The notes below the pieces were generated by a model. It was not told the origin of the DNA. It worked only from the letters and a program-made list of their open reading frames with translations, and ran no database searches. From Mimachlamys varia (lineage: Eukaryota > Mollusca > Bivalvia > Pectinida > Pectinidae), in contig OX392529.1 in the NCBI GenBank assembly GCA_947623455.1, positions 54,331,186 through 54,395,185 on the forward strand: a DNA stretch of 64,000 nucleotides, written 5' to 3'. The position numbers and the translations under genes are program-made. Numbering within the stretch: the stretch's first letter is position 1; each line of letters opens with the position of its first letter. Of the stretch, positions 9,558 through 52,500 are shown in pieces.

Positions 9558-9732
9558 ATGTCTGATGACGATGAGGATGCTGTTCTCCACTTTCGACCTA
9601 ACAAACCAGTGCTCTATGGAAGTTTGGAAGACAAAGAACGGCAGCGATTGGCTAACATCAAGACTTCAGGATCTTTAGCCTCTGATGCAATTGAAGCAGG
9701 AAAAGCAGCAGGAAACATCGTTATAAGTGATG
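9558..9732 (+). CDS. PRPF4: PRPF4 coding exon 1 (aa 1-58)
   Basis: Starts at ATG 9558 and ends phase 1 in ...GAT G before GTACAT, a weak donor. Carries the acidic start and [12 protein letters not shown]. Confidence 0.85.
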
Positions 9733-10007
9733 GTACATAGGTCACTTCTCACTCTAGGCGAAAAAATCCATCAGCAAAAGTGGCTAAACCCCCATTTTTT
9801 TCTATAGCAAATTTGTCAAATACACTTCTTTTTCTTTAGTAAAAATTTTAGATTGGAGCGTATGCTTCTTCACCTTATCTTCTTATCCTCCCCTGTCTAA
9901 TGACACAAAAAAAGTCAAAACATTTTAAAATATGATGATGATGATTAATTTGTATTTGCAACCACTGTTTGTTATTATGGGGTCTGTTTTTTTCTGATTT
10001 TTAGTTT

Positions 10008-10052
<45 letters not shown>

Positions 10053-13000
10053 TTTTCTTAACCATCAAATTCTCTTTGCAGGGTCCAGGTATGAGATTAG
10101 TGATCATGTTGACCAAACGGAACTGTTGGCAGAGTTAGAGAGGAGGAAAAAGGTGCCGTATTCTATGATTTTATGTGAAAAATTATTCCTGTTCTCTTTC
10201 ATATCTGGATCAACATATACCTAATAATATATATATATATCTACAGTAAAACCCAACTTACTCAAACTTTTGGGGACTTGATCCATAATTTGAGGAATAT
10301 TAATATATGGTATTCCAGTAATCCAAGGTTGGTTGAATATGTATGAACTCGGTTGGGACCAAACACTGGTAACCCTTAAAGGCCTAATGAAACAAACTGT
10401 TCGATGAATGATGGGGTATGCAAGTTAAGCAAGATCAAGTAAGTGGGGTTTATCTGTATTACTTTGTTCCTTTTCCAGATCTATTGCTAAAAATGAGAAA
10501 AAAATATCAATTTACATTTCTTCAAGATTTTCATAGTTAGAATGTCCATGGAAAATTGAAGTTTAACAAAAGACTGTTCAAAATAAAAGTTGTTCATATG
10601 AATGTATTGGATTTTGCAGGCACGCCACATCCATGTGTCTACAGATGACGCTGAGGTGAAAGCCAGTCTACGACAGCTAGCAGAACCAATATGTAAATAC
10701 TTCAACTCATATATCTCAAAGTACTACTTCTTTTTTAAGTAATCAAGAAATACCAGGTTATAACCTGTTCTGTGTCAATATACAAATCTTATTATCTGAA
10801 GAACATGTATACCATATTCACTGCAATTAGCACCCCTCCCCCTATAGTACCCCTCTCCCTCCTGCAGAGGTATTAATTTTATTTAAGTGCTCCTACCAAT
10901 CGTGACACAAATTAAGATTCTTTTTAACTGTACGACAAACCTCGACTCTGTGGGCATGTTTACAAGAAAAAAAACACCTTTAAATATCCGTAATATGTGT
11001 ACAATAGTATCGCACATCATGAGTACTACCCATTCTTGTCATAATACATTGTACTTATTTACTTTATAAAAACAATGTTTTTTGTCATATCCTTATTTTT
11101 TTAATCCCAATAAGCGCATCCTTTGGAATCAATTTTTTAGGCGCACTGGGTGCGAAATACAGCGAATATGGTAACACTGTTAACCATGAAGCCATTTTTT
11201 TTCCGATGGAAAAAGAAAGTTTTTTCATCTTGTGAAGTTCATCGATTTTTCAAATGTTAGTATTAATCACATACTAATTACATCATTCAATATTCAGTAA
11301 AGATCTTATATATGCAGTGATCAATCTAAGTACGAGTCCCGAGTCCAGTACTCATAAAAATATGAAAGGACTCATAGAAATTCTGGAAATGCTTCAATTT
11401 AACGTTGTGGGACCCATTGTTTTCAGCAATGTGTACAAAAAGGACCCATGAAAATAAATTGTAAATTGACCACTGTATATGCGATAAAACCTATTTTGAT
11501 TTGGTGATGTAATTTTGTAAAAGTTATCTCCCTTATTTGTTGTATGCTTGTAGGCTTGTTTGGAGAGGGCCCTGCTGACAGAAGAGAGAGACTTAAAAAG
11601 ATTCTGGCACAGATTGGTGAGGATGCCCTGAAACAAAAGAAAGAAGATGAGATACAACTCAAGAAGAAAAAGGCAGAGGTATGCCTTTTTCATCTGCTGC
11701 CTCCAGAAATATTTTATTCTTTATAACAGCATCCTCGATATCCAGTGGTTACACTCACCTACTCTCTCTACACCCCTGGAATATGTCCTGGCAAAACTGA
11801 AGGCACGCTTAAGTTAAAAATAATCCTGACCTGCAATCGCTAGGCTGATGCCTGTCTTTTGAAGATTACAAAGGAGTTGCAACTGACTTCAAAGCCTGTT
11901 AGTTTTATGTGACTTCAAGATTCTTTTGATGTACATGAAAGAGTCAATCCAGTGCTTTTGCATCATCAACAAGGTGGCACCCATGGAGTCTACAGTTTTG
12001 CCATTACATATTTCAGGGGTGTAGAGAGTGTAGGTGAGTGTAACCCCTGGATATCGAGGATGATGTAACAGATGTGATTGATAAAGTTAACATTGTCTGT
12101 CTAACCCATGTTAGAATTTAAATTCTCAAAGAAATTGAATCTTTGATATTGACTTAACATGGAAACATGTATAGCACTTCAAAACATGTTTGTAATCAAT
12201 TGTGAAAGAATTTTGAAACTATATGCAGATGGACTTTGTTTTCTGCATAAAGTTTTATCAAGAAAATATTTTTTTTTAACTGGTTTGTGATGTTGATGTT
12301 TAAGTAAGACTTTCTCAATGACTTTTTTTGCACAGGAGAATATAACTTGGTACCATGAAGGTTCCGAGAGTTTAAAAGAGGCCCGCTACTGGCTAGCTCA
12401 GTATTCAATACCAAGGTAAGGCCCGCTACTGGCTAGCTCAGTATTCTATACCAAGATAAGGCCCGCTCCTGGCTAGCTCAGTATTCTATACCAAGGTAAG
12501 GCCCCCTACTGGCCAGCTCAGTATTCTATACCAAGGTAAGGCCCGCTACTGGCTAGCTCAGTATTCTATATCAAGGTAAGGCCCGCTACTGGCTAGCTCA
12601 GTATTCTATATCAAGGTAAGGCCCGCTACTGGCTAGCTCAGTATTCTATATCAAGGTAAGGCCCGCTACTGCTCAGCTCAGTATTCTATACCAAGGTAAG
12701 GCCCGCTACTGGCTAGCTCAGTATTCTATATCAAGGTAAGGCCCGCTACTGGCTAGCTCAGTATTCTATACCAAGGTAAGGCCTGCTACTGGCTAGCTCA
12801 GTATTCTATACCAAGGTAAGGCCCGCTACTGGCCAGCTCAGTATTCTATACCAAGGTAAGGCCTGCTACTGGCTAGCTCAGTATTCTATACCAAGGTCAT
12901 AGGTGTTAACCTCTGAAACCTCCACTGAGAGAGATCTCCCTCTTTCCATATTTCAAATGAGAGAGAAAGTGTGTGAATGCGACTGAAGCTGCATTGCTCA

Positions 13001-16000
13001 ATTTGTCTTTCCCTTATATGTATCAAAATAACTTCACAAAGTATTCATTTGATCCAGACACACCTGTTATGGTCATTACACATACTCTGCAGTAACTAGG
13101 AGATCATTTGATCACAGGATGTAGATTTTGAGTGTGTGTGAGTTTGGACTTGGATGAGGGAGATTTCGGGGGAGATTGGTAAATTTTGGTCAAAATGAGG
13201 GAGTCTCCCTCGTAATGAGGGAGGGTTAACTGGTATGCAGGGTAAGGTCCCAGGGATATACATAACACTGTACTCCCAAACTGTTCTTGGTGTGAAAGTA
13301 AGCATGAACTAGAAATATTTCCAGACCTATATAATTATACAGTAAAGCCCAATAACTTAAGCCTGGTTTATTTGAATACCTCTCATTCGTCATACAGTTC
13401 GTTAGGTCCTGACTGAGTCCGTACGTATTCAACCAACCTCAGATTACTTGAATACCATGTATTCCTCGAACTCTTGATCAGGTCTCCTCAAGTTGGAGTA
13501 ATTTGGGTTTTGCTGTATGTCATTTCTGGCAGATGTTCTACATTTGGTTTGTTTCCATGTTTATCTTGACGACAGGGCCAAGAACAGACTGATAGCTCAG
13601 AAACAGACGAAGTTCATACCTACCACTCAGAGGAATGCAATGACACAGGACATACAGAAACGTATAGGAGTAAGTATTGGTGTCTATATGTGCATGTGAG
13701 AAATAAGTTTGGTAGAACCCCTGTAAACAAGCTTAAGTATGCTTGAAATTTAAATGTAGCAGTATTTTACTACAATCTGCTAATTATACCCCCTACTTAG
13801 GTAAGAGGGGTATACAGTAATAACTTTATGATACCGTAATTTCTTGCGTATTATGCGCACTCATGTATAGTGCACGGGTGCTTTTTGGGGTCCAAAAATT
13901 GAAAAAAGAAAGTCGGGGGGGGGGGGGGGGAAGGTCAAGTTGGAATGATAACACCAACCAGGTAAGTCGCCAATTAAGGTAAATGAAACAAATACCTTTG
14001 AATGGAAAACTTCGAAAACATAACACATTGCCTCATTAATATGGCATGACGTTGATTGACACCTCGTACCCCCTTCTTGACACTTTCGATTTTCCCTAAA
14101 AAGTATGCACTAGCTATACGCAAGAAATTACGGTATGTGCGTGCGTCCGCGCTTGCATCCATCCAGACCTTGTGCACAACATATCTTAACAACTCCAGGT
14201 CAGATTTGGTTAATATTCACACCATAGCATTACATGGTGAAGGTCTACACCTGATTAGATTTTGATGGTCATTGGTCTATGTTTATGGTCAAAGGTCGCC
14301 GGTGACCACTTTGGGAACAAAAAGCTTGTGTTCCAAGATTTCTCCTGAACTCCTGGATTGATTTGGTTAATATTCACACCATACCATAAGCATCACACTA
14401 TCAAGTTCTATACCTTATTAGCTTTGGTGGTCATCGGTCAACGTTACACCTCAACAGTCGCACTCAATCACTTTATGGGGGGGGGGTATATCTATGATAG
14501 CCCCTGCTCACAGAAAACTCATGCATTTGATCTGGATTACTAATAACTACTAATTACTAATGGGAGGGTCACTAATAGAGAAAGAGGCGATTACTACCGC
14601 GAATACGGTATTACGAATAAATTGACAAGAGGGAAATATTCTAGTACTAAACTACATTAGTTATACCTTCTAATAATTAATTTTCCATTGATTGAATGCA
14701 GATGCAGCTTTCTAATTGGTTGAGATTTTCTTTTCATACCTCTATGAAAAAAAAATCTGAAAATGGCGTAAAAAAGGTGATGTCACAATATGACAATTGA
14801 CGTTGCATATTGATTTGTCAAAAAGAATCTGTTGTTAGATCTGTCAAATTGTACATAGACATGTTTTAAATTTGAAAATGAGTTTCAAAAATTAATTATA
14901 AGTGTTGATGTCAATTATCTTTTAGTTTCATATGGTTATGAAAAAATGTTGCTTGCAAACTTTTGTAAGAATCTGTTACAGATTCATACAGATCGCAAAG
15001 AAAATTTAATCAATGTTTAAATGGTCCATAGTGGTGAAAGGGGTAAACCTACAATCGAACATTAACATCTGTAGATAACAACTGTTAGATATGAAGACGG
15101 GAGACCTGTAAATTTGTAGGATACATGCTGTTTACATAATGTCAGATTTCTTCTTGCAGGCTGTATCTAATGAATGTAGTCAGATTGGTGACAACCGACC
15201 CCTATCATACTGTAACTTCAGTCCGGACGGTAAAATACTGGCAGTGTCCTCGTGGTTAGTATGGCTGAGTAGTTGTAATGTATTTATGATAACAAATTAT
15301 TATGATTTATTTATTCATAGATCCTGTCAATATTATCTGTCATCTGGCAAGCACCTGCTAGGAACTAAAAGACTGATTAACACTGATTTGACAGTATTTC
15401 TTAATAAATGAGGTTGATTCCTTCATCTATAGCAATAAATACTTAGGTGGAATAAGCGTACACATTTGTTATAATTTCTTGTTATTTTATTACAAAACTC
15501 CAAGTCTTAGTGTTTTAAAAGCAGTTTATTGAACTGGTCCCTTTCTGATCCAAAATTAATTAACTTTTATAGAACATTTCTGTGCCTTTAAACTTGTTCA
15601 ATAAGGATCAACAGAAGCAGCCTAAATGAAGTTTTTATCATCTTTTTAACAGGTCTGGTCTTTGTAAGCTGTGGTCAATACCTGACTGTGGGCTGATTAG
15701 GCAACTTAGAGGTGAGTCAATGGCAACCATATAAAGTTTTATGTTGTTTAGATATCGTGGTTACATAACATTTTTCAGGGGAAGTAAAGATATCAGTTGG
15801 GAGTGAGGTATTAGTCCAGAACTAAAATGTGAATGTATTAGTCAGGAGTTAGGGATAGTTAGGAACTGGGTGTGTTAGTCGGGTAAGAGGGGTGTTAGTA
15901 AGGAGAGGGGGATATTAGTCAGGAGCTAAGTGTATAAGTTCGGGAGAGAGGTGTATTAGTAAGGAGAGAGGAATATTATTAGTCAGGAGAGAAGGGTATT

Positions 16001-19000
16001 AGTTAGGAGCTAGGTGTTTTAGTCAGGAGAGAGGAATATTAGTCAGGAGCTAGGTGTATTAGTCAGGAGAGAGGGATATTAGTCAGGAGCTAGGTGTATT
16101 AGTCAGGAGCTAGGTGTATTAGTCAGGAGCTAGGTGTATTAGTCAGGAGCTAGGTGTATTAGTCAGGAGTCAAGAGTGGGGTATTAGTTAGGAGCTATGT
16201 GTATTATTTTGGAGCTAGGTGTATTAGCCAGGAGAGAGGGTATTAGTCAGGAGCTAGTTGTATTAGTTTGGAGCTAGGTGTATTAGTCAGGAGAGAAGGA
16301 TATTAGTCAGGAGAGAAGGATATTAGACAGGTGCTAGGTGTATTAGCCAGGAGAGAGGGATATTAGTCAGGAGCTAGGTGTATTAGTCAGGAGCTAGGTG
16401 TATTAGTCAGGAGCTAGGTGTATTAGTCAGGAGCTAGGTGTATTAGTCAGGAGCTAGGTGTATTAGTCAGGAGCTAGGTGTATTAGTCAGGAGTCAAGAG
16501 TGGGGTATTAGTTAGGAGCTATGTGTATTATTTTGGAGCTAGGTGTATTAGCCAGGAGAGAGGGTATTAGTCAGGAGCTAGTTGTATTAGTTTGGAGCTA
16601 GGTGTATTAGTCAGGAGAGAAGGATATTAGTCAGGAGAGAAGGATATTAGACAGGTGCTAGGTGTATTAGTCAGGAGAGGGGGATATTAGTCAGGAGCTA
16701 GGTGTATTAGTCAGGAGCTAGGTGTATTAGTCAGGAGCTAGGTGTATTAGTCAGGAGCTAGGTGTATTAGTAAGGAGAGGGAGGGATATTAGTCAGGAGC
16801 TAAACAGTCAGGAGGGAGGGATATGCTGTATCTATTTACAGGACATAATGTGATTAGATGCTGTATCTATTTACATGACATAATTTAATTAGATGCTATA
16901 TCTGTTTACAGGACATAATGTGATTACATGCTGTATCTATTTACAGGACATAATGTGATTAGATGCTGTATCTATTTACAGGACATAATGTGATTACATG
17001 CTATATCTGTTTACAGGACATACTGTGATTAGATGCTGTATCTATTTACAGGACATAATTTAATTAGATGCTGTATCTGTTTACAGGACATAACGGCAAT
17101 GTAGGAGCAATAGTGTTTCACCCTCAGGCCACTGTATCCCTAGACGACAAAGCATGCTGTATGGCTTCTTGTGGTCAGGACGGATCGGTCAAGCTCTGGA
17201 ACCTTGTCAGGTTAGGTCAAAATATTCATTTCAATCAACTTCACACAGAGTTATAAAGTATGGCTTCATTTAGTCAAGACAGATTGGTCAAGCTCTGGAG
17301 CCTTGTCAGGTTAGGTCAAAATATTCATTTTAAACTCCTTCACATAGAGTTATAAATAATGTAACCTAATTATGTTTGATTTGGGGTAAGTTGGAGTATG
17401 TTGTTACGAGAAATGTTTGTCCCCATAAAACTTTTGCCTTTACTGGTAAGAGTACCTGTCCACCCAACGTTAGTATAGCTTCTAAAATGAAATACTGTAA
17501 AGTGATCTAGATTGGCTGTCTAATGATCTACAATCTAGATAAGTTCACCCTCGCTTATTACGCCATACGGAGAGCTAAAAAGACGAAAAATTGTTGAGGA
17601 AATATACGGCTAAAAAAACAGTATTTGAATTAGCTCCTGGCTTAAATACAGGACTATTTGCCATAAATCTGTTTTAATCAAGCGAAAAGAAATATTAAGG
17701 AAAAAATGAAGTATTACTGTAAACATACATATTTTAGCGCTGGATGCATTTTGCTGAACTGATTGCGCTCATTTTAATTTCTGTATATTACTTTTGAAAG
17801 AAAGCCTTATGAGTGGGCCAATTCATCATTGCGCTTATCTGTTTTAATTTTGATATGTGTTAAAATTAGAGTATGCCAAAATAAGTACATTAACACAGTA
17901 TATAGACTATTAAACCTTAAACATTGACACAATACTATAATATGTCTTCACTGTATATTTTTGACGGAGAGTAAATCTGACCCCTGATGTTTGTTACAGT
18001 GAGGAACCTATGGCAGACATAGAGGGCCACGCCCCCTACAGAGTGTCCCGCCTAGCCTATCATCCCTCGGGGCGCTTCCTTGGAACCTGCTGGTAAAGTC
18101 TCTTTTGTATTAATCATCCTTAAAAACAAGGATATGGTTTTTAGTTTGTCCATCCATCTGCCGCATATAGCTGTTTGGAATATAATTCCTTTAAATGTTT
18201 ATAGTTTTCAATTAAGATAATACTCGTAGGCAAGTTAAAAGGAGGAGAGCATCTTTAATTTCTCTTAGTTTAGGTACAGAATGTTAGAATGCAAAAGATA
18301 CTTGTGATACTAGGACGCAGTGGCCGAGTGGTTAAGGTGTCACGACATTCTACCACTAGCCCTCCACTTCTGGATTGCGAGTTCGAAACCCATGTGGGTT
18401 AGTTGCAAAGAACTGGCCATAAGTTGATGGTTTTTCCCCGAGTACTCCGGCTTTCTTCCACCTCTGAAACCTGACTCATCTTTAAATGACTCTGGCTGTT
18501 CTGGCTGTTAATAGGACGTAAAACATACATAAACCAAACTTGTGATATTATATGACCAGAGTTGTCATTGTTGTGGTTACTGTCATTTAAGTCAGTATGT
18601 ATATTGTATTTTGTTGACAGTTTTGATAATTCCTGGAGACTTTGGGATTTAGAGGCTCAGGAGGAGATCCTACATCAGGAGGGACACAGTAAACCAGTGT
18701 ATGATATAGCTTTCCAGAACGATGGAGCTCTGTCTGTCACAGGGTAGGCTTTCAGCTCACGTCTTGTGTGAGAGGAATAATATCGAAAATGTTGTAAATA
18801 CTGTTAAAATGAAATTGTTTGCCCTGTCTTTATTGCACCTACTCATGAAAAAATTTGAATTTACCCTGTGTTGAATATATCCTGTTTTGAATTTACTCTG
18901 TTGAATTTACCATGTGTTGAATTTACCCTGTGTTGAATTTACCCTGTGTTGAATTTACCCTGTGTTGAATTTACCCTTTGTTTAATTCGCCCTTTCAAAT

Positions 19001-22000
19001 GTGTGAGTCATAGCGATACCTGTAATATGAAACGTAAGCTTATGTTTGATCAAATATTTGCCTGGTCTTCAATTTGCCCTTCCATTGCAGGGCAAAAATG
19101 GTGAAAATAGAATGAAGGCAAATATTCCAGTTTTACAGTACTTTAGTGGTTTATTCATAATAATGGAATAATATTATATAGGCAAGAAATATAAGCAAAA
19201 TGTCTTTACCTCCCTTTAATTTATTGTTCATCTACACATACCACAATATTACAGGAAACTCTTGATAAAAATATTGTACATAGTAGACAGGGAATATTTG
19301 TGGGAAATTATGCAGTACTCAAAAGCTAGGTCTACCTGTGATGTAGTATAACCCTCAGGGATAATTCTGACTCTTAAAATATATGGGAGAATTTGAGGGA
19401 TCAGCAAAATATCTATGAGATTTTTCTATATAAAGTAATATAATTTTGAATTTCAATGAGATTTCAGGGAAAATATGGGTAAAAATTCCCAAATCTCGCC
19501 CCAAAGTGAACCCTGATTCCTACTTGGGACGCGCTCACTAGTCCGGCAATATCAAGCATGGCAAGGTACTCCATCCTTGATATACAGGGGTTACACTAAC
19601 CTGTACTTTCTACACTCCTGTAATATGTCATAGCAAAAAAAAATTAAAAAATCAGAGAATACCAAAGCGTCAACAAAACCATAATCCAAACTCAAAATTA
19701 AACTAGGGGCAAATAGGAACAGAGGAAAGATTTACATGGAGACTCTCGTAAAAGCACAGTAATAAGACCAGGTGTTCCGGAAGAGTAAGCGTCTTCTGCT
19801 TCATTGGACGACACCGGCCTTGTCAAAATTGAAGGCTCCGTGTGCGCCACCTAATTGATGAGGCAAGAAGACTTTTGATGTACATAAACAATTTCATGGT
19901 CACATAACGGTAAACATTGACAGGCTTTGTGATATCAGTTGCGACTTCTTTATAATCTTCAAAGGAAAGGTTTCAGCCTTGCTAGTGATTGGTCAGGTTT
20001 TTCTACATGAGACCAATCAAACTGCTATCTTTGTGCCTTCAATGTTGCTATGACATACTCCAGGAGTGTAGCGAGTGTAGGCGAGTAATTCCTGGATATT
20101 GAGGATATTTAGGATGGGCACAGTCATGGATGGGTTACCACTTCTATGTTATGATACAGATAAATCTTATACATTAGGAATAGTCAGACATTGGTACTCT
20201 ATGGACATGTTTACGTATGTTAACACAGAGAAATTGTGTTACAGGGGTATGGATGGATTTGGACGAGTCTGGGATCTACGCACTGGACGCTGTATCATGT
20301 TCATGGAAGGTCATCTGAAAAGTGTGCTGGGTGTGGACTTCTCGCCAGACGGGTAAGTAACAGAAAGAATGAACCGCTATTACTTCTCTTGACATAATAC
20401 ATGTAGGTAGGTCACAGATGCTGTAGTATGTCAAGGCTGCCTGCAAAGGTCACAGATTGTATGTCAAGGTTGCCTGTTAAGGTCGTCACAGATTGTATGT
20501 CAAGGTTGCCTGTTAAGGTCAAGGATAAAATGTCAAGGTTACCTGCCAAGCTCACCGACAGTACGTCAGGGCCTGCGACCAATTCTGGTCTCTTGCATTT
20601 CAAGTCAATATTTTAAATTGCTTTGGTTTGGGAGGGAATTTCCATAAACTGGATTATGTCAAAGTAAGTAAGAGAGTAGAAAGCAGGAAGTTCATTAATT
20701 TAGAAAGTGATAATTAGTCCCTCACCAATACTACCGGAGGGTACCATGGATACAGTCCTTTCAATAATGTTAAATACTTTATTTCAAAAAATAAGAAAAA
20801 CTTTCACAACAAAAACGTTAAATATCGTTTAATTTTCAGGTATCACATTGCAACGGGCAGTGAGGATAACACAGCTAAGATTTGGGATCTCCGACAACAC
20901 AAATGTATCTACACCATTCCGGCTCACACCAACCTGGTCTCCAAGGTCAAGTTCCAACGTAAGTCACAGGGCAACACAAGTATATCTAAACCATCCCACC
21001 GCTCACACCGAATCTTTTCTCCAAGGTCAAGTTCCAATGTAAGTCACCGCCCAACACAAGTGCATCTATACCATCCCACCGCCCACACCAACCTTGTCTG
21101 CAGGGTCAAGTTCCAACGTAAGTCAAAGCCCAACACAAGTGTATCTATACCATCCCACCGCTCACACCAAACCTTGTCTGCAGGGTCAAGTTCCAACGTA
21201 AGTCACAGCCCAACACAAGTGCATCTATACCATCCCACCACTCACACCAAACCTTGTCTGCAGGGTCAAGTTCCAACGTAAGTCACTGGCAAACACAAGT
21301 ATCTAAACCATCCCACCGCTCACACCAACCTTGTCTCCAAGGTCAAGTTCCAACGTATGTCACTGCCCAACACAAGTGTATCTATACCATCCCACCGCTC
21401 ACACCAACCTTGTCTCCAAGGTCAAGTTCCAACATAAGTCACAACCCAAAACAAGTGTATCTATACCATCCCACCGCTAACACCAACCTTGTCTCCAAGG
21501 TCAAGTTCCAACGTAAGTCACAACCCAACACAAGTGCATCTATACCATCCCACCGCTCACACAGACCTTGTCTCCAAGGTCAAGTTCCAACGTATGTCAC
21601 TGCCCAACACAAGTGTATCTATACCATCCCACCGCTCACACCAAATTTTGTCTCCAAGGTCAAGTTCCAACGTATGTCACTGCCCAACACAAGTGTATCT
21701 ATACCATCCCACCGCTCACACCAACCTTGTCTCCAAGGTCAAGTTCCAACGTAAGTCACAACCCAAAACAAGTGTATCTATACCATCCCACCTCTCACAC
21801 AGACCTTGTCTCCAAGGTCAAGTTCCAACGTAAGTCACAACCCAACACAAGTTAGTGTATCTATACCATCCCACCCCTCACACAGACCTTGTCTCCAAGG
21901 TCAAGTTCCAATGTATGTCACTGCCCGACACAAGTTTATCTATACCATCCCACCGCTCACACCAACCTTGTCTCCAAGGTCAAGTTCCAACGTAAGTCAC

Positions 22001-23192
22001 AACCCAAAATAAGTGCATCTATACCATCCCACCGCTCACACAGACCTTGTCTCCAAGGTCAAGTTCCAACGTAAGTCACCGGCCAACACAAGTATATCAA
22101 TACTAAAATTTGGTAGAACCAGACAAAATAGGATATCGATTGACATCAAGTGACCAAGTGTCAAGAAAAGTCGCTCTATGCACGGTTCTATATGTACAAG
22201 GCTGTGTAAGAAGATTGTGGAAAAATTACAACTTCTAGTACCTGTTGGACTTGTAGGATCTTTGCGATAACAACCTTTTTCTGTACAAAATGTGTAAATA
22301 ATATTGTAATTGTTTTGTAGCGGATCAGTCCAGCTACCTGGTAACCTGCTCATATGACTGTACATCAAAGGTATGCTTCACCAATACAGCAGTATTGTGT
22401 TGGGGGGGGGGATTAGTGGAATACTGCAAGATGGTTAGGGTTCTGTGGAATTATATTGTCATCACATAAGGATTGAAATTCATTATTTTAAAAAATTTTA
22501 TAACATCATGAAAATTAAAAAATATTCAAAATGACTTTCAATGCATATATTTACATCTTAACTGTAGAAAATTTGTTTGATTTCCTTCATGTTTTCTCCA
22601 GCAATGAATTTATTATCTGCATTTGTGCGTCATTTAAGCAACATTGGCAGAACAGCCGTTATTTGAATAAAATTGGTGCCAATGATTATCATTTGAGTGT
22701 TTGATGCAGGGGCCTTTCCATGTTATTTGAAACAAAGCGGCAAGACCCAAAATTTGAACAATGTTAATTTATGACATCATAACTGAACCACATATTACTT
22801 GACAACGTCACGTGAATATGCTTTCATACTCATATGAAAAGCATTTCTGTTGGTAATATTCATAAGGTTGGTTGTAGCGCAAATGTAGAAGTATGGTATG
22901 GCAATGGTTTCACTTTCGTAGAATATACTGGTAATTGGTTGTGTAGTTAAATCCAGCTGAGGGTTTTTGTGCGAAGATTCTTTTGGATGAGCTAGTTTTG
23001 CGATTCTACTTTCCACCAACTTTTCATTGCTAGATCTGGGCCCATCCAACCTGGGCACCACTGAAGACCCTGGCCGGTCACGAGGGTAAAGTAATGGCAG
23101 TCGACATCTCACCCGACCGCAAGTACATCGCCTCAGTGTCGTACGACAGAACGTTCAAACTGTGGGCCACAGACAACCAGGGAGGACTATAG
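9558..23192 (+). CDS. PRPF4: U4/U6 small nuclear ribonucleoprotein PRPF4 (15 coding exons, 515 aa)
   Basis: PRPF4 (Prp4, 60K) is a core protein of the U4/U6 and U4/U6.U5 snRNPs; it works with PRPF3 and cyclophilin H in spliceosome assembly. Fifteen exons join with matching phases into 1,548 nt including the stop, that is 515 aa (human 522). The N-terminus ([12 protein letters not shown]) is divergent, followed by [12 protein letters not shown] as in the family. The SFM/PRP4 domain spans about residues 60-120, with [13 protein letters not shown] and [14 protein letters not shown] Lys-rich helix follows, then [18 protein letters not shown]. From about residue 212 a seven-bladed WD40 propeller runs to the end, with GH and WD markers such as [17 protein letters not shown] and [18 protein letters not shown], and ends in [12 protein letters not shown] 9558 (GCCATGT context) is the only good start. 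Oddity: four of its splice junctions are tandemly duplicated (see findings). Confidence 0.95.
10009..10052. repeat. (ATC)n microsatellite in PRPF4 intron 1
   Basis: About 15 ATC units just upstream of the exon 2 acceptor. A short complementary GAT run lies at about 9932-9946, so the two could pair in the pre-mRNA. Confidence 0.9.
10082..10152 (+). CDS. PRPF4: PRPF4 coding exon 2 (aa 59-82)
   Basis: Acceptor CTCTTTGCAG, then [20 protein letters not shown]; donor AAG|GTGCCG, phase 0. The intron just before it carries an (ATC)n tract. Confidence 0.88.
10244..10456. mobile_element. TA-flanked CAGT-ended MITE (PRPF4 intron 2)
   Basis: TA|CAGTAAAACCCAACTTACTC at the left and AAGTGGGGTTTATCTG|TA at the right. 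It is 213 bp, non-coding, with near-inverted ends. TA duplication with CAGT...ACTG-like termini fits pogo/Tigger-type elements. Confidence 0.7.
10620..10692 (+). CDS. PRPF4: PRPF4 coding exon 3 (aa 83-106)
   Basis: Acceptor GATTTTGCAG; encodes [20 protein letters not shown], the start of the SFM/PRP4 motif; donor AT|GTAAAT, phase 1. Confidence 0.9.
10810..11173. mobile_element. Inverted-repeat element, TACCATATTC ends (PRPF4 intron 3)
   Basis: Left end TACCATATTCACTGCAATTA; right end TACAGCGAATATGGTA, an imperfect inverse. The interior is C-rich (CACCCCTCCCCC) and non-coding. Confidence 0.55.
11554..11678 (+). CDS. PRPF4: PRPF4 coding exon 4 (aa 107-148)
   Basis: Acceptor GCTTGTAG; encodes [20 protein letters not shown] and a Lys-rich helix; donor GAG|GTATGC, phase 0. 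Confidence 0.92.
11730..12062. mobile_element. Long-TIR foldback element, copy 1 (PRPF4 intron 4)
   Basis: Ends are ~58-bp inverted repeats beginning CATCCTCGATATCCAG and running through TACACTCACCTACTCTCT and ACACCCCTGGAATATGTC. The 333-bp element is non-coding. Related copies are at 19572-20107 and 24850-25109. Confidence 0.8.
12336..12415 (+). CDS. PRPF4: PRPF4 coding exon 5 (aa 149-174)
   Basis: Acceptor TTTGCACAG; encodes [20 protein letters not shown]; donor AAG|GTAAGG, phase 2. The last 35 nt plus the donor are the first unit of a 13-copy array that continues through the intron. Confidence 0.9.
12381..12900 (+). repeat. 40-bp array, 13 copies of PRPF4 exon 5 end plus donor
   Basis: Units start every 40 bp from 12381 to 12861 and read GCCCGCTACTGGCTAGCTCA followed by GTATTCTATACCAAGGTAAG. 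Unit 1 is the real exon end plus donor (with TCAATA in place of TCTATA). Eleven of the 13 units carry AAGGTAAG; unit 2 reads AAGATAAG and unit 13 AAGGTCAT. Reading through the first donor meets TAA at 12417-12419. Confidence 0.97.
12898..13237. mobile_element. CATA-ended inverted-repeat element, copy 1
   Basis: Left end CATAGGTGTTAACCTCTGAA; right end GAGGGAGGGTTAACTGGTATG, partial inverses of each other, with CTCCCTCAT-type inner repeats. It abuts the last unit of the 40-bp array, where the donor is destroyed. Copies lie near 23646-24134 and 30125-30469. Confidence 0.65.
13340..13515. mobile_element. TA-flanked CAGT-ended MITE (PRPF4 intron 5)
   Basis: TA|CAGTAAAGCCCAATAACTTA at the left and AGTAATTTGGGTTTTGCTG|TA at the right. 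It is 176 bp and of the same type as 10244-10456. Confidence 0.7.
13576..13669 (+). CDS. PRPF4: PRPF4 coding exon 6 (aa 175-206)
   Basis: Acceptor CTTGACGACAG; encodes [20 protein letters not shown], the linker before the propeller; donor GGA|GTAAGT, phase 0. Confidence 0.9.
13831..14136. mobile_element. MITE with ATACCGTAATTTCTTGCGTAT ends (PRPF4 intron 6)
   Basis: A 21-bp inverted repeat (positions 13831-13851 and 14116-14136) brackets 306 bp that include a long G run (about 13914-13931). Non-coding. Confidence 0.75.
15160..15254 (+). CDS. PRPF4: PRPF4 coding exon 7 (aa 207-237)
   Basis: Acceptor TTCTTGCAG; encodes [20 protein letters not shown], opening the first WD40 blade; donor TG|GTTAGT, phase 2. 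Confidence 0.92.
15653..15711 (+). CDS. PRPF4: PRPF4 coding exon 8 (aa 238-257)
   Basis: Acceptor TTTTTAACAG; encodes [19 protein letters not shown]; donor AGAG|GTGAGT, phase 1. Confidence 0.92.
15835..16812 (+). repeat. 20-21-bp minisatellite with higher-order structure (PRPF4 intron 8)
   Basis: The unit is close to GGTGTATTAGTCAGGAGCTA with GGATATTAGTCAGGAGAGA variants, filling about 1 kb. A 324-bp higher-order unit is visible: the rare variant GAGTCAAGAGTGGGG recurs at 16167 and 16491 with the same downstream order of variants. Confidence 0.9.
16823..17102 (+). repeat. 35-bp array, 8 copies of PRPF4 exon 9 acceptor
   Basis: Units start at 16823, 16858, 16893, 16928, 16963, 16998, 17033 and 17068 and read ATGCTGTATCTATTTACAG followed by GACATAATGTGATTAG. 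The last unit is the real acceptor and exon start (GACATAACGG). Unit 2 has lost the AG (TTACATGACA). Confidence 0.95.
17087..17210 (+). CDS. PRPF4: PRPF4 coding exon 9 (aa 258-298)
   Basis: Acceptor TCTGTTTACAG; encodes [14 protein letters not shown] ... [13 protein letters not shown]; donor CAG|GTTAGG, phase 2. Both ends are tandemly copied into the neighbouring introns (acceptor x8 upstream, donor x2 downstream). Confidence 0.92.
17161..17357 (+). repeat. 99-bp tandem duplication of PRPF4 exon 9 end and donor
   Basis: The real exon end at 17161-17210 plus 49 bp of intron is repeated from 17260, including a second CTTGTCAG|GTTAGG donor. The second copy has changes (ATGGCTTCATTTAGTCAAG) and no acceptor of its own. 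The frame between the copies is closed by a stop, so it is not a second exon. Confidence 0.9.
18000..18092 (+). CDS. PRPF4: PRPF4 coding exon 10 (aa 299-329)
   Basis: Acceptor TTTGTTACAG; encodes [20 protein letters not shown] and [10 protein letters not shown]; donor TG|GTAAAG, phase 2. Confidence 0.93.
18311..18540 (+). mobile_element. tRNA-derived SINE in PRPF4 intron 10
   Basis: The tRNA-like head carries an A box (TGGCCGAGTGG, 18321-18331) and a B box (GAGTTCGAAACC, 18379-18390) with a Leu/Ser-like layout. The body follows with TTTTTCCCCGAGTACTCC and the tail with TAATAGGACGTAAAAC. Related reverse copies lie near 35634, 37135, 37472 and 38340. It is not a tRNA gene, because the 3' half does not close an acceptor stem. 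Confidence 0.8.
18621..18743 (+). CDS. PRPF4: PRPF4 coding exon 11 (aa 330-370)
   Basis: Acceptor TTGTTGACAG; encodes [20 protein letters not shown], the most conserved blade; donor GG|GTAGGC, phase 2. Confidence 0.95.
18856..18996 (+). repeat. 16-17-bp minisatellite (PRPF4 intron 11)
   Basis: About nine copies of TTGAATTTACCCTGTG with variants. Confidence 0.85.
19572..20107. mobile_element. Long-TIR foldback element, copy 2, with internal insertion (PRPF4 intron 11)
   Basis: Ends match the 11730 family (CATCCTTGATATACAGGGG at the left, CCTGGATATTGAGGAT at the right). At 536 bp it is longer than its relatives and contains a segment (about 19700-19815, with CCGGAAGAGTAAGCGTCTTC) that also occurs inverted near 1590-1640 and diverged near 3800-3840. 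Confidence 0.7.
20245..20352 (+). CDS. PRPF4: PRPF4 coding exon 12 (aa 371-406)
   Basis: Acceptor TTGTGTTACAG; encodes [20 protein letters not shown]; donor GG|GTAAGT, phase 2. Confidence 0.95.
20411..20553 (+). repeat. Minisatellite, about 4 copies (PRPF4 intron 12)
   Basis: Irregular 31-35-bp units built on TATGTCAAGGTTGCCTGTTAAGGTC, starting about 60 bp after the exon 12 donor. The unit does not copy the exon. Confidence 0.8.
20840..20958 (+). CDS. PRPF4: PRPF4 coding exon 13 (aa 407-446)
   Basis: Acceptor TTAATTTTCAG; encodes [20 protein letters not shown], then [14 protein letters not shown]; donor CAAC|GTAAGT, phase 1. The last ~65 nt plus the donor seed a 15-copy array. Confidence 0.94.
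20880..22096 (+). repeat. 79-80-bp array, 15 copies of PRPF4 exon 13 end plus donor
   Basis: The marker GTTCCAAC|GTAAGT recurs at 20951, 21031, 21110, 21190, 21270, 21347, 21426, 21505, 21584, 21664, 21743, 21822, 21905, 21984 and 22063. The first is the real exon end. Most copies keep GTAAGT or GTATGT; 21426 reads CATAAG. Units at 21110, 21190 and 21270 have also gained CTTGTCTGCAG, an acceptor-like string 14 nt before the donor. Confidence 0.96.
22321..22370 (+). CDS. PRPF4: PRPF4 coding exon 14 (aa 447-463)
   Basis: Acceptor TTGTTTTGTAG; short exon encoding [16 protein letters not shown]; donor AAG|GTATGC, phase 0. Confidence 0.9.
23034..23192 (+). CDS. PRPF4: PRPF4 coding exon 15, terminal (aa 464-515)
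   Basis: Acceptor TTCATTGCTAG; encodes [19 protein letters not shown] and [11 protein letters not shown]; stop TAG 23190-23192. Confidence 0.95.
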
Positions 23193-23645
23193 GTCATAAC
23201 TACTGCTGGTAGTTATGCAGGAAAAACGGTTTGTAGAACAAGACATTCAAGCATGCAGTGCCTGTGCCACTCAACGGACGATGAGTACAACAGGATGTTT
23301 ATATATACACGATCTGTATGTCATCCAAGTGGTGAAAGTATAGCGCGAAATGTTCACAATTTCTATAACAGGATCGATGAGGCCAGGCTGTCATACAATG
23401 AAACAATCTGTGCACATGACATTTACATACATGCATGGCCAATCTGACAGACGACTGAAAGTGCTTGCTATTGCGTGCGTGACAGGATACATACAGCGTC
23501 TGTGTGTCATACAGGATGAAGTAGTGGATGTCAATCATTCATTTTCTTGTATCATCCTTCCCTATATATGCCAGGGGTTAAGCTCATAATCACTCTCTGT
23601 ATACCTGGAGTATGTCATGGTGAAATTGAAGGCTGTAGGCGTGCT

Positions 23646-24134
23646 AATACCTGTTAACCCTCCCTCATTAGGAGGGCAAATGAGAGAGACTCCTTCATTT
23701 TGACCAAAACTAACCAACCTCCCTCAAAATCCCCTCATTTCTTTCCATCCATGCACAAACTCAAAATCTAAATATGGTAGTTAAATGATATCCTAGATCT
23801 CCCTCATTTCATATTTCAAATGAGGGAGAAAGTGCATAAAAATACAACTGAAACTGCATTGCTCAATTTATCTTTCCATTTCTATGTACATGTATCAAAA
23901 TAACTCTAAATTGCATTAGTTTGATCCTGACACACCTGTTATGGTCATTACACACACCATAACAGGTGTGTCTGGATCAAACTTATGCATTTTAGAGTTA
24001 TTTTGATACATAAAAATGGAAAGGTAAATTTTAACCAGGCAGTTTCCATGGTATATTTATGCACTTTCTCCCTCCTTGGAAATCTGGAATGAGGGAGATC
24101 TCCCTCATTGGAAGTTTCAGAGGTTAACACCTAC
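23646..24134. mobile_element. CATA-ended element as an inverted dimer
   Basis: The left half (AATACCTGTTAACCCTCCCTC onward) is followed by an inverted copy of its right part. The arms meet at about 23934-23969, where CACACCTGTTATGG and CCATAACAGGTGTG face each other across TCATTACACACA. Arms extend about 150 bp with many mismatches. Confidence 0.6.
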
Positions 24135-45638: not shown

Positions 45639-46180
45639 TGTACTGCGGTGGCTGAGACAGGTATCCCGAGTTCGATATCCTATCTATACACGTATTACGA
45701 TACTTGTTTGGATATGGCCCTCGGTCGTCTAGGGCGCCTCGAGTTGCTAAGGTGTTACACACCTCGCTGAGCAGCCAATGAAAGGTAGATTAAATGCCCA
45801 ACTCGGCGCTGATATCACGAAGGGGTATACACGCGACACGTTTACCTGTCTTGGAGCAGAGCGCGACTTCATCACAAATGTCCTATAATGGTGTATATGA
45901 TTATGAATGCTACTTTAGTTCGGTCCTCTTTGTCTTAATGTGATATACAACACAAATTGGATGATAAATTGGTACGTTCTTCTGTTAAAATAAAAATAAC
46001 ACGGTAGGTAGTTTACACTGGGAGATGTTTGCTCGTTGTCACACTATTAACGACAGTGTCACCTGTACCAGTTGGGGACACCGGAAGCTCGGCAATACAC
46101 ATGCGTAATTGACTATTTACCTGTGACACAAAAACCAACATGGCCGTGCAGTTTGACAGGTGAGAAGACCAGATAGAAAG
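45639..46180. promoter_or_regulatory. Divergent CIMIP2B-like/TRPV promoter interval
   Basis: 542 bp separate the two start codons. A CCAAT pentamer occurs at about 45774 (AGCCAATGAAA). A short upstream frame, ATG GCC GTG CAG TTT GAC AGG TGA (46140-46163), precedes the TRPV start and is out of frame with it; its CAG|GTGAGA could also be a donor. No clear RFX X-box was found by eye. Confidence 0.5.
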
Positions 46181-46544
46181 ATGGGTAACACGACTGTTGT
46201 CGCCTCCAATGTGAAGGCACAGGGGGACAGCGACGTGAAAAAACTCTACCAGCTTGTCGATCTAAAAGGCGGTGGTGAGCTGATCGATCTCATGAAAAGG
46301 GCAAGATGGAAAAAGAATTATAAAGAAATTGATGAAAAAATACAGACGGACGTCAAAAAATTTCTCTATAATGATGGCGAAGGGAAGAAGGTTCCTATCA
46401 TCGACCTTATCATGACCAGGAGTAAGGAGAGGAGCAGCAACAAGCCCAAAATTAACAAAAACAAACAGGAGAAGGACAAAGAACTGGCGATGATTGACAT
46501 GAACTTCCCTGACGGCCAGGGCAACTACCTTCACAACAAACCAG
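46181..46544 (+). CDS. TRPV coding exon 1 (aa 1-121)
   Basis: ATG 46181 (AAAGATGGG); encodes the pre-ankyrin region ending QGNYLHNKP; donor CCAG|GTAAGC, phase 1. Confidence 0.9.
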
Positions 46545-49500
46545 GTAAGCAGCTGCTGGACCAATGGCGACACGGCTCACTGGTTACGGGACGTTCTTTA
46601 CACGTCAGTGTTATCACAAGTATGGTAGTGAAGCATGTCATAATCACATTGTAGTTAAGGAAAACTTTTACTGTTTGTTGTTTTAACTATTTATGAAATA
46701 CTGTACTTACCAGATTGTGTGTATACTGTATAAATGACATTTCTTTTGATACACAACAGCAAGTAAAAAAAATATGCAACAGCTAAGTAGTTGATTAACA
46801 AGCATGCATTAATTATATTACTTAATTGTAAATATATGTTTATGGAGTTAATGTGTTCATTTAAAATACTTTCTCAAAACAAAATAACTATTTTCTGAAA
46901 ATGAATAATTGACAAGACTGTCTAATTTCTAGTAAAGTGCCGAGTTTGGCAGATTTTACCTAAATTTAATGTGCAAGCAAAGCAAATCAATATGAAAATG
47001 AGCTAAATATTCTACCACAGTATTTTTTGAAGGAAGTGAGCATTAGGCCCAGGGATATAATTTTAAATATGTAAAGTATCTATACGCTTCATTTTCCCAT
47101 TGATATATTAATTAAGCTATAGTGGTATATCCCAAAACAATGTGACTTTGACATCAAATTGGTCTTTGACCTTGACCTCAAGAACTGAATAACTTTCTGA
47201 CCACATTTTGGTTATTGTTCAATAAATAGACAACTGACTTTAGGTAGATGTGAATGACATCAGACAGTAGCTATAGCTACACTTAGGAAAGCATTAATTG
47301 TGTCACAGCATCATAGACATATGAGACAAAACAAGGTCACAATGACCTCCATCTTTGATTTTGAATTCTAAACAATTTTTTCAGGAACATGATCTTAGCT
47401 GAGCTGTTTACTATCATAATGAACTTTGTATACATATTTGAAGGTGCAGTATGACGTGACATTTATAAACTAGGTCATTGTGACCTTGATTTGACCTTAT
47501 ATAAACCAATGACATGTCTTAAAATAGCGTTTTATTTTGAGAATATTCTACCTGGTTTCTGATTCCTTAATGGTCTGCACTATATGTAAATTATAATGTT
47601 AAGATACATCATGGGGGATGTGGTGGTCATGCAGATCCTAAAATAATAAAAATGAGGTCAATGTAACCTCAATTTTATCTTTGACCTACATACCTTTAAC
47701 TATTCCACAAATGGGCTTCAGATATGAGCTGGGGGCACCAGTGAATTAAGTCCTGAGGCTCGGAGCTAAATCTTACTTTTTATTCAGTTACAGAATAAAT
47801 ACTTAAAAGTTAATGAACGTTTTCTTATGTTTCACTTGTATATTTTACTTCTTCAAGTGATGAAATTAAATCAGAAATGTGTAGGGTATATTAAAAACAC
47901 TATTTTATTTTACATTTTGAAATAAATTCTTGCATGTATACATCAGTACACTCATTACGTGGCTTCAAAAATTTGCCAATTGTAACTTTTTACAAAATGT
48001 AACTTTTAAAATTTAACAAATGCATGCCATGTAGTTTCAAATAGATATTTAATATACCAGTTTGTGATGTAGAATAATTACTAATGCTGAATAAAATTTA
48101 TATTTGTTATTTTGCATGAACAAAGTCCATACTTGCCAACTTTTTGAAATTTCCATGGGGGAGATAATTTTTAATGCATGCTCAGAATTTAAAGCATAAA
48201 TAATATGTGTGAATGTACACCAAAAGGAACAATAACACTTTTAAATGGCTTCTTTTGAGCTGTTCTATCAGATGAAAACATCATATCTGAAAAAATAGTA
48301 ATAGTTAAGCAAATTAATTGGCTGAAAATGCAGAATTTTAGGCTTCAAAATTGGGAGTCTCCCTCCTAAATAGGGAGGGTTGGCAAGTATGAAAGTCACA
48401 CATTTGAAATATCTATTATTCACTTTTGTTTGTAACACAATTGCTTTCAGACGGCACTTCACTGCCAGGTATGTATATTGAGGTTGATGGTGAATATTGT
48501 CATATTTGTATGAATTATTATGCACTTCTGTAAAAATATGTTCTTTCCCCCACTATTTGTGTTGTCAGTGGTGTCCTGCAAACACTGAGAGCTTTCTGTA
48601 CACTTTGCATTAAAACCTAGTTGTCCTGCATTCTGTGCTTGCAATGTTATGTACAATTGTACCTATATATATGAGCCAGAGTGTTCCTGCTGTAATGTAG
48701 ATTATTCATTGAGATGATGTCTGCATAATTCATGATATCAAGTAGGTATAGTCGTATATCCATCAGCAATAGCTGTAATATATCAGTGCTACCGTATGGA
48801 CTGTCTTAAATTAATACTGTATTCTGCTGAAAATAGTAGTTGACCAATGCAACAAAATGTGAACACCCAAAAGAAATGCTGTACTGGTTTTTTTTGTTTT
48901 TGTTTTTATATATATATATAATATAAAAGATCTATGACTTAATAGATACAATAAAAATATATTTCTCATTCAGACATCTGAACCCAATACTGTTTCTCCT
49001 GCACAAATCGCATTGCTGTTACAGAAAGCCTTATTACGTACATTAACCCTTCCAAAAAAAAAAAAAAACAGTCTAATACAAAGAGTTTAATTCAGTTTTC
49101 AGATTTACACAGGTTTACATATTCCTTATGGTTCCCTTAAGAACTTTCTATTTACAGTAAAATTAATGTATTTGTATGTGACTATAAGCCTATGCATATT
49201 ATATATGTAACACATAAACATTGAATGTTCATGGTTTTGGTAAAATTTTATGAAGTTGTCTCTGCAATTCCTAATTCTTTATACATGTATTTCATAATCA
49301 ATATCCGTCTACGGTCCAGAAAACTGATAATAAATTAACTTCTTGCTCTACTTATTATGAATAATCTGTTTTGATTAATCTTAAAGCTGACAATGCAAGT
49401 TAAAAGCTTTCAATAAAGATTTGAAAAAAAAATATTCAGATTGTGATTACTCCGAATAGTTCCGAGATGTTCCCTACATTGACCATGTGTCTTCCGGTTT

Positions 49501-52500
49501 TCGTAACCAAGGAAGTGGCAGACATTTTTGATTTATCCTTGCTTGGTAACGTGTGTAGACAACCTTGGGTATAAAAGCACCGATGTTGTAAAACCGGTTT
49601 CATTCCGACACTGCCCTCTCTATGTAGCACGTCTTTTACAGTTACAAATAGTCTGTACACATGACGTTACGGCTCGTTTCGTGTTTTTTTTACGAATATG
49701 GATATTGGAAAGCTATATAATAAATATGAAATGAAATTGTAATAAAAACATCCATGTCCCCATGAAACTTGCAACAAAATAACACAACACAACTATGTAA
49801 TATATGTTGCAAGTGAAACAAACAAATGGCTATTTAACGCTTATGCCTACCTTTTTGATATCCAACTAGTACTAACATCCAGCGTAGAAACCATAATAAA
49901 TCCACATAAGTCCATGAGAATGGTCCAAATATATCATTTCACATTGTTGACTACACACCTGGGTGTGCCGTGTTTTACACGTGTTTGCTTGTCAAGCGTC
50001 TACATGACCAAGACTAAGAGTTTGTACGTGGATGCGATTATATGCACGTGAAAGACCGGCGATATATATTGGATTTATGGAAGTATTTTCAGTGATATAC
50101 CTTTTATTTCGGATACGCAATTTCAAGAATGTGTTATTAGTAACAGCCAGCATGGCAGTATTATGGTTCAAAGTCTAAAGGTGAGTGCGTTTGATTTTTG
50201 ACAGCGGTTGCCGAGTGCGCAGAGCACTGAATGTTGTGACGGTCAGGAGTACTTTGAAAACCGGTTCTACAGGCTATGACCTTTATATACCCATCGGGGT
50301 CCATACTCGTTACCAAGCAAAGGCAAAACTAAAATGTCGGCACTTCCTTAGAAACGATGGTCGGAACAAATAGGGGCGATCTCAAAACCAGAAAAAAATC
50401 CAACTTTTTTTAAAAAATATTAATTGAAAGCTTTTTAAGTTGCATTGTCAGCTTTAAGATTGGTCTTGCGTACTACAGACATGTCATATGACAGGTTTTA
50501 ATTTGCTGTCCTCCAAGGTGTTTAAACAGTTAAGGTTCTCCAGTCTTGTTTATTTCTTCCTGTTGTAACTAACAATTTACAGATTAAATAATTAATAGAA
50601 AAATTACATATAATTAGTCCTAGCAATTATAAGTGGACATTTAGGGGAATTTTGATTAATCCCTCTCTGTATATATATATATATCAATCATGATCTACCG
50701 GTATTTGAAATGATTATTTCAGATATCTAATAACAATAGTACATTAAAAATGAAGGTAACAATAATATAATGTCAATACTATTACATGAAACAGTCAGGT
50801 CATCGTTTGTGCATCAAGGGAGATAACCCATTTTAAATGATGAAGGGAAGATTTCTACCATAGGTTTTACATCTACAGAAATGTTCAGTGTTGTTTTGAT
50901 TATAGCTTTTTCCTTTTGTGTTTTATTGTTTATTTTAAATTTATTCTTTGTTGTGTGTAAATATTTTTATTCTTTGTTGTGTGTAAATGTATAAGCAGTG
51001 TGCTTTGTTTTAAATTAATGACTATAATTGGCTTTAATTATTCATTTATTAATCAGCATTTTGTTTGTTTTTTTTTATGTTTTTTTATTTTTTTCATTTC
51101 TGCATACATACATAAAGTGTATATACTGTACAACATATATATTGTATTTTTTGTGATTCGGCTTGCCAGATTTCCTGTTTCTTATCATAGAATTTCTTTT
51201 GTCTTTCAAAATCAGTTCAACCTAAATTGGACAATATATTTTACTTCTAAACCAACAGGTGAAGTCGTTCACTTATATGTATGGAAGGGTTAATTAAAAA
51301 AAGAAAAAAGTTAAAATTTTGATATTTTGTAGCGATAAGCAAATTTTAACTATAAAATTGTCTTATTAAGTGATTACAGAATATGAATTTGATAATGTAA
51401 TGATATTTTGTTCAGACTGTAAATTCCATAAGACTTGCTGGGTGCTTGATATGTAATGATATTTTGTTTAGACCGTGTATTCCACAAGACTTGCTGGGAG
51501 TTTAATATGTAATAATATTTTGTTTAGACCGTAAATTCCGTGAGACTTGCTGGGACCTAAATGAGAGAGGAACCGTCGGAGAGTCTATCCTCCATCTCTG
51601 TCTACTCAATGCCTCGGCTATCCACGCTGACCTGGCGAAGCGGCTCCTCCAGGCCTTCCCCAAGCTCATCCTCGACATCTACACCAGCGAAGAGTATTAT
51701 GGTATGTATGTCAGGGATACCATAAATAAAGGGAGATAACCCTAATCTGTAATTAAACAGATACTGAGATTACTTACCCATAGACTCCCATGTTATGTAA
51801 ACATATACAGTGTTCGCTCGATTTACCACCACCTTTCGTTCACAGCAATTATGGCAGTATAACGAAGGTGGTGATAGTATCGAATTATGAAAATTATTAC
51901 CAAGAATTAAATTGCATAATAGATTGCATTTCGAACATTTTATTAAAACAAACGTAGTATTATATCGTCATATAGATCTACATTGGCACAAATTTATATC
52001 TGAAAATAGTTATTGATCTACTTTTGCCATATGCCAATCCAAATGGAACTCTTAATATTTCCTCGATCTCCAAAAACAGAACCATGTGGCATTACCGTTG
52101 AGGAAAATGTAAAGCGATTCGGGACATTTGTATTTTAAAGAGTGTGGCGGATGTCGATATGGGAGGGTGGCGAACTTAACGAGGGAATTATATAGAAGGG
52201 AAATCTGCTTTAGAAGTTTAGGTGGCAGTATGCGAGGGTGGCAGTAGATTCGGGTGGCGATAGGTCGAGGGTACACTGTACATTGTAGGTATCAATCTTA
52301 TATCAATGAGTCACCTTACTAAAGCTCAAATATATAAAGATTTATCATGATAATTGTTAATTATATACCTTTTTGTTATAATAATTAACTAAATTAGATT
52401 ATTTTTCTAAGTTCATATAATAACAATTATTGTATACTAGAAAAATTGATTGAGGAACTTTTCAAATTACCTTAATGATGAACAAACCATATTTTTCCGG

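Follow-up and report, generated by a model that had tools for sequence, protein, structure and literature searches.

Tandem arrays across exon boundaries in genes of the scallop Mimachlamys varia: probable counterparts of the amphioxus mirages

Introduction

Why do tandem arrays in scallop genes sit astride splice junctions, and does their position call for more than random birth and selection on the coding sequence? The question is raised by a 64,000-nucleotide stretch of the Mimachlamys varia assembly (GenBank GCA_947623455.1, contig OX392529.1, positions 54,331,186 to 54,395,185; hereafter the window), in which four arrays in the gene PRPF4 and one in a gene for a Nanchung-type TRPV channel each contain a true splice junction. 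A first-pass annotation had reported these arrays, with units of 40, 35, 99, 79-80 and 56 bp, and had regarded their frequent start across a junction as unexplained. Analysis of the window and of further genes of the same assembly indicates that the arrays are probably mirages, the name given in amphioxus to minisatellite-like duplications over exon boundaries, carried here to a second phylum.

Results

PRPF4 (U4/U6 small nuclear ribonucleoprotein Prp4; 9558..23192, plus strand) was modelled as 15 coding GT-AG exons with a single 515-aa open frame, in which residues 16-509 match PDB chains of that name with 742 bits. Among the best 120 of 1641 relatives, the closest is the protein of the scallop Ylistrum balloti (93% identity, gap-free across 515 aa), and the next named mollusc follows at 77% identity. 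Coding exons 1-4 of the TRPV gene lie at 46181..54818 (plus strand; Nanchung match, E-value 1.9e-107); this match covers about 290 residues of a protein of about 880, and the gene therefore extends beyond exon 4.

Tandem Repeats Finder (TRF), listing of the repeat units and the gene models confirmed all five arrays, each with one real junction and each on the plus strand (a slash marks the splice point below). At the exon 5 donor of PRPF4, a 40-bp unit is present in 13 copies (12379..12897); copy 1 consists of the terminal 37 nt of exon 5 plus GTA, with the true donor at 12415/12416 (AAG/GTAAGG), and 12 decoy copies follow. The 79-80-bp array at the exon 13 donor (15 copies, 20895..22103; true donor 20958/20959, AAC/GTAAGT) likewise includes the terminal 64 nt of exon 13 in its copy 1, followed by 14 decoys. 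Exon 9 is bordered on both sides, by a 35-bp array of 7.7 copies with the true acceptor inside its last copy (16823..17093; acceptor 17086/17087) and by a two-copy duplication of 99 bp at its donor (17159..17356; true donor 17210/17211, CAG/GTTAGG). The former is the weakest of the five cases, its exon share being only 7 nt (GACATAA), and the latter, with only two copies, joins the terminal 52 nt of exon 9 to 47 nt of intron in its copy 1. In the TRPV gene, a 56-bp unit in three copies (51389..51555) spans the exon 2 acceptor and includes about 28 nt of exon 2; the true acceptor (51527/51528) lies in the last copy, with two decoy acceptors upstream. The outermost copy is the true exon in 5/5 cases, donor arrays growing downstream and acceptor arrays upstream, as annotated at first pass. 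We agree with the proposal made there that this polarity follows from selection on the coding copy: coding constraint suffices, and because it forces the polarity, the latter is no separate evidence.

Several other arrays were scored as misses. A 20-bp array in PRPF4 intron 8 (15901..16802, plus strand) and a 33-36-bp array in intron 12 (20426..20555, plus strand), 74 bp beyond the exon 12 donor, span no junction. A 57-bp array of 10.5 copies (43839-44437), 1.7-2.3 kb upstream of the TRPV start codon, contains three CAGGT motifs per unit, including CCAG/GTGAG, and may be a candidate donor array of an untranslated exon; it too was scored as a miss. Ungapped 40-base self-comparison for hidden, diverged mirages at 40 window junctions found none besides the known five.

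An independent sample was drawn as 10-kb stretches of the same assembly that were not chosen for arrays. The analysis touched 18 contigs of the assembly, each 40-66 Mb long. In 24 such stretches, which include one contig end and total 240 kb, 69 tandem arrays of period at least 20 cover 27% of the sequence. This agrees with the scallop A. pleuronectes, in which tandem repeats are the largest repeat class at 21.7% (PMC10225492). Five genes, picked by eye from coding-score lists, were modelled with 65 junctions in all: SEC23 (36), a BDH1-like SDR gene (9), COMMD9 (10), a COMMD-like gene (2) and a ZEB-like gene (8). Stretches L022-L025 were added to extend recognised genes, and L026 to follow a 46-bp array that continued into it. 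Segments of coding appearance elsewhere in the sample, among them in L008, L015, L019, L020, L027, L028 and L029, stand outside the 65 junctions, and no gene was recognised in L030. The SEC23 and ZEB-like junctions were set at the GT or AG nearest to match ends or to the ends of listed open reading frames (ORFs). SEC23 is presumed from a match to a human query, and the COMMD-like and ZEB-like names are likewise presumptive, assigned by eye. The six exons of COMMD9 give one 198-aa frame and match COMMD9 in the PDB (2.5e-38, with a query lacking exon 4). The body of the SDR gene matches DHRS9 (1.2e-12); its last exon is without clear alignment, and the link of that exon to BDH1 is again presumed by eye. 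Within a large coding exon of the ZEB-like gene there is an in-frame tandem duplication of 51 bp in two copies (L025:177-279, minus strand).

Four of the 65 independent junctions bear an array whose outermost copy is the true exon, namely three COMMD9 donors and one SDR acceptor. The COMMD9 arrays (L026 plus L016, G000 C13 about 20.995-21.009 Mb) have a 46-bp unit in about 75 copies at the exon 2 donor, a 25-bp unit in 24 copies at the exon 4 donor and a 59-bp unit in 12 copies at the exon 5 donor. In the first of these, 64 pattern-matched copies within one intron all read CAG/GTAAGG. Four copies of this 46-bp unit also occur as a fragment in the upstream intron (6215-6402 of the joined stretches). 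The SDR array (L004 plus L023, G000 C2 about 8.0066-8.015 Mb) has a 66-bp unit, extends over 2.7 kb at the last acceptor and fills nearly the whole last intron. Three of the four arrays lie wholly in stretches fetched blind; the COMMD9 exon 2 array was met in L016, its exon in L026. Together with the window, the set comprises six donor and three acceptor arrays. A 75-bp array of 27 copies on the minus strand (L002:3283-5359), whose unit holds ACAG/GTAAG, is a candidate donor array; as no gene was recognised there, it was not counted.

The decoy sites in these arrays are largely intact. With the energy of the U1 duplex as the yardstick of donor strength, decoys 2-11 of PRPF4 exon 5 (10/12) equal the true donor 9-mer AAG/GTAAGG at -10.0 kcal/mol; the first decoy has lost its GT and the last (AAG/GTCATA) reaches -4.1 kcal/mol, so that GT is kept in 11/12. 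The single decoy of the exon 9 donor, at 17309, is identical to the true CAG/GTTAGG (-8.0 kcal/mol), GT is kept in 13/14 exon 13 decoys, and AG in 6/7 exon 9 acceptor decoys. Within the PRPF4 arrays and that of COMMD9 exon 2, no weakening of U1 energies with distance from the true site was visible by eye. The suggestion that such arrays are tolerated because decoys weaken with distance finds no support in the ten exon 5 decoys or in the 64 uniform COMMD9 copies. At the PRPF4 exon 5 donor, if the outer intron flank (AAG/GTCATA) is ancestral, duplication would have strengthened the true donor.

Use of a decoy would introduce a premature stop at 12/12 sites in exon 5, 8/8 in exon 9 (seven acceptors and one donor), 13/14 in exon 13 and 2/2 in TRPV, the one exon 13 exception being a decoy that adds 159 nt. 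In COMMD9, full frame is retained by one of 63 tested decoys in exon 2 (+48 nt), by 0/20 in exon 4 and by 0/11 in exon 5. With a premature stop predicted for almost every decoy isoform, the outer splice site would have to be used.

Array copies vary by substitutions in the window and elsewhere. The true copies of PRPF4 exons 5 and 13 share differences from their decoys, but copy 1 of the COMMD9 array is identical to its exon over 31 nt, the following 28 listed copies matching at 65-87%. Reseeding of arrays from the exon was considered as a general process and rejected, being present at COMMD9 exon 2 and absent in PRPF4 exon 5 and COMMD9 exon 5.

How many arrays should meet a junction by chance depends on the null that is used. 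For the window, 27 TRF arrays (period at least 15, score at least 50) were set against the 40 junctions, five of which, on the minus strand at 30.5-33.5 kb, are tentative. In 5/27 arrays a junction lies inside the outer unit. Circular shift gives a mean of 0.56 (fraction reaching five, 0.0004), permutation of units within the two genes a mean of 0.70 (P 1e-4), and permutation of whole arrays P 0.02-0.07; the count is five when 1-3 bp of overlap are required, four at 5-7 bp and three at 8-10 bp. These P values are optimistic, since the window was chosen for looking this way. By coverage, 5/40 junctions (12.5%) fall in local repeats, whereas the proportion of positions in such repeats is 25% for PRPF4, 15% for genes and 9% overall. 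This measure gives no excess in genes and counts against enrichment; the signal is in how the arrays sit.

The independent genes offer a fresh sample. Circular shift yields 1.13 expected junctions versus the four seen (P 0.017), and when pooled with the window 1.67 versus 9/105, a count that none of 20,000 draws reached. The splice-like motif MAGGTRAG occurs in 3/69 array units of the 24 stretches versus 0.6 in shuffles (P 0.02), two of the three being COMMD9 arrays. In the window, AGGT is in excess by count in the units of non-junction arrays (12 versus 3.4 expected, P 0.0003; 12 of 22 non-junction arrays). Birth of arrays driven by AGGT was nonetheless rejected, as presence of the motif in non-junction units, at only 5/12 (P 0.11), is unremarkable despite that excess.

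Arrays lengthen introns, and the relevant target for a founding duplication is therefore the intron minus its arrays. Under a strict null, a unit of p bp is seeded randomly in an array-stripped intron of N bp, with an exon overhang of at most one unit, so that it crosses a junction with a probability of about 2(p-6)/(N+2p). This probability is 0.39 for PRPF4 intron 13 (217 bp when stripped, 79-bp unit); in COMMD9 it comes to 0.37 for intron 2 and to 0.25 for intron 5. The gene in stretch L014 was left out, and overlapping TRF rows were merged by hand in SDR, SEC23 and COMMD9. In the independent genes, 4/20 intronic arrays cross a junction versus 2.09 expected (P 0.13), or 3/19 versus 1.72 without the COMMD9 exon 2 array (P 0.23); with overlapping rows left unmerged, the figures are 4/24 versus 4.61 (P 0.79), and 9/38 versus 5.86 (P 0.06) for all genes. 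Only the independent figure is unbiased, because the window was selected, and its excess over the strict null is not significant. The enrichment of arrays at exon boundaries, which the first-pass annotation had put forward as the check, gave a divided outcome on this small set of 65 junctions, with P 0.017 by circular shift and P 0.13 by the strict null. Between a third and a half of the anchoring may be put down to random seeding together with selection that protects the exon; what is left, a two- to three-fold excess at junctions, is unproven where the sample is unbiased.

Several other features accompany these genes in the window. CDC26 (Pfam ANAPC_CDC26; 8233-8496, minus strand) lies head to head with the PRPF4 start at 9558 on the plus strand, and the two are neighbours in the human genome as well. 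A gene for a ciliary microtubule inner protein is represented by tentative exon models at 29677-33481 on the minus strand; SPMIP5 passes the Pfam cut-off for these exons and a CIMIP2B-like match falls below it. A TRPV intron holds split direct repeats at 57646-61934 (repeat A at 57646-57986 and again at 60446-60786, repeat B at 59679-60505 and again at 61108-61934), which surround a 503-aa ORF (58282-59790). A Pfam search of the ORF region 58306-59790 returned no match; the A1-ORF-B1A2-B2 layout is one known from DIRS/Ngaro-type elements.

Discussion

Recurrence across genes, the structure of the units, the outermost position of the true junction and the intact rows of decoys are observed, and lead to the mirage reading; the steps of birth and retention below are a proposal. 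Tandem duplications would arise throughout a minisatellite-rich genome, being removed within coding exons and kept in introns. A founding duplication of about 25-100 bp that by chance straddles an exon-intron boundary would be kept because the outer splice site stays in use, and would then expand as a minisatellite. Every expansion would add decoys on the intron side, so that the polarity would need no directional process, and arrays would lengthen existing introns, nothing in the data pointing to the birth of new ones. Introns stripped of their arrays are short, so that many arrays would meet a junction by chance, and the constrained exon copy presumably keeps junction arrays recognisable for longer, which would mimic a hot spot and could explain the excess, if that is real. 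We hold this account of seeding plus selection to be the probable one, with moderate confidence.

Some of our results weigh against it. Under the strict null, 5/14 intronic arrays of the window cross a junction versus 1.25 expected (P 0.002), as do 9/34 in the pooled set versus 3.34 (P 0.002), and given these counts there may be a junction bias. The arrays also seem to cluster by gene (COMMD9, 3/10 junctions; PRPF4, 4/28; SEC23, 0/36), which uniform seeding does not predict and which lies outside all the nulls used. As a check for selection on decoys, the comparison within exon 5 is weak: exon and intron parts of the decoys vary alike (0.029 and 0.030 in 11 decoys), the intron part comprising just three positions. 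Splicing from the outer site is a prediction from DNA. To call the junction starts unexplained was nevertheless an overstatement: random seeding over 34 intronic arrays would give 3.3, leaving part of the nine seen, five of them in the pre-picked window, to be accounted for.

That part could point to exon edges as birth hot spots for minisatellites, a possibility that we regard as doubtful. Its causes might be stalled forks, R-loops, the edges of nucleosomes or the microhomology of AG-rich splice consensus; slippage during replication and R-loop-linked breaks had been suggested at first pass. The pooled counts exceed both the strict null and the circular shift (9 versus 1.67 for 105 junctions), and the enrichment of MAGGTRAG comes from stretches not chosen for arrays; however, the independent genes by themselves give only P 0.13, rising to 0.23 once the array at COMMD9 exon 2 is set aside, and AGGT is in excess by count in non-junction units too, so that the motif is not junction-specific. 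It is accordingly no more than a tentative picture that scallop exon edges are a true birthplace of minisatellites, with a row of decoys at about 1 in 10-15 junctions and with natural series in which as many as 64 identical donors, spaced mostly by 46-48 bp, compete and only the outermost is used.

Retention for a function in splicing, with spare sites that aid exon recognition or decoys that feed a switch by nonsense-mediated decay, is improbable. PRPF4, with four arrays, is itself a core splicing factor, nearly all its decoys yield premature stops, and exon 5 combines a strong outer donor (-10.0) with a weak last copy (-4.1) that has the outer intron flank, but GT is lost in one decoy each of exons 5 and 13 and AG in one of exon 9, and TRPV, COMMD9 and the SDR gene, which have no known common splicing role, carry arrays as well. 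Intron gain of the Rogers type, under way via duplicated AGGT-containing exon ends and raised at first pass, is very unlikely, even though several units carry AG/GT and papers on amphioxus and potato tie such duplications to new introns (PMC3087553, PMC4974935). In 9/9 cases the array leaves out the second true splice site of the intron, which was therefore not built from the duplicate and looks like an expanded existing one; the PRPF4 protein is moreover collinear and gap-free over its 515 aa with that of Ylistrum. We can give hardly any credence to a chance cluster or an assembly artefact confined to a single window: this window was indeed selected for its odd look, but four more arrays were found in two genes from other stretches not picked for arrays, and substitutions between copies are unlike the simple repetition of one read stretch.

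If outer sites are used faithfully, these genes would provide natural tests of splice choice in which the true donor is the one farthest from the acceptor. PRPF4 would offer eleven identical donors, ten decoys plus the true site, spaced by multiples of 40 nt, and COMMD9 would offer 64. A neutral expectation for junction-crossing arrays is also now available as a yardstick for any hot-spot claim. The Ylistrum PRPF4 protein, at 515 aa without insertions, bears on splicing in Ylistrum only. A single-gene parallel is the minisatellite of the human interferon-induced gene 6-16, a tandem repeat that gives several splice donors at an exon end.

Human variable internal tandem repeats are minisatellites with units of about 30 bp on average that overlap splice boundaries (PMC2812944); they alter splicing and can form introns in recent paralogs, whereas the scallop outer site seems to be required. 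In a potato RdRp gene, a duplicate across an intron-exon boundary made a new intron (PMC4974935), and the scallop duplicates cross such a boundary in the same way but have lengthened existing introns. Within molluscs, an abalone TSSK1-like gene has a minisatellite with a 27-bp unit in intron 3, which is not reported to touch an exon (PMC6905558). A search of the literature on mirages, exon-boundary minisatellites and scallop minisatellites, with most subscription papers lying outside it, found no mollusc case.

The closest known system is that of the amphioxus mirages, minisatellite-like tandem duplications over 5' or 3' exon boundaries in genes such as Adh3, the globins BflGb6 and BflGb9 and PGBD5, with units of 10 to 160 bp and AG/GT retained in many but not all copies (PMC3087553, PMC3902484). 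Those of the globins, Adh3 and PGBD5 are reported not to disturb splicing (PMC3087553, PMC3902484), and mirages have been proposed as a source of new introns (PMC3087553). Amphioxus mirages are further characterised by lengths that vary between alleles or somatic cells and by homogenisation inside the cluster from which boundary copies are exempt, a point on which the PRPF4 and COMMD9 copies described above give a mixed picture. As in amphioxus, the scallop units span junctions at both donor and acceptor ends and most copies keep AG/GT; unlike there, the host is a mollusc, a single array can have about 75 copies and a single gene up to four arrays, and they are known here from the DNA of one assembly. 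A structure described in lancelets would thus now be found in a second phylum, and repeated across the genes of one genome.

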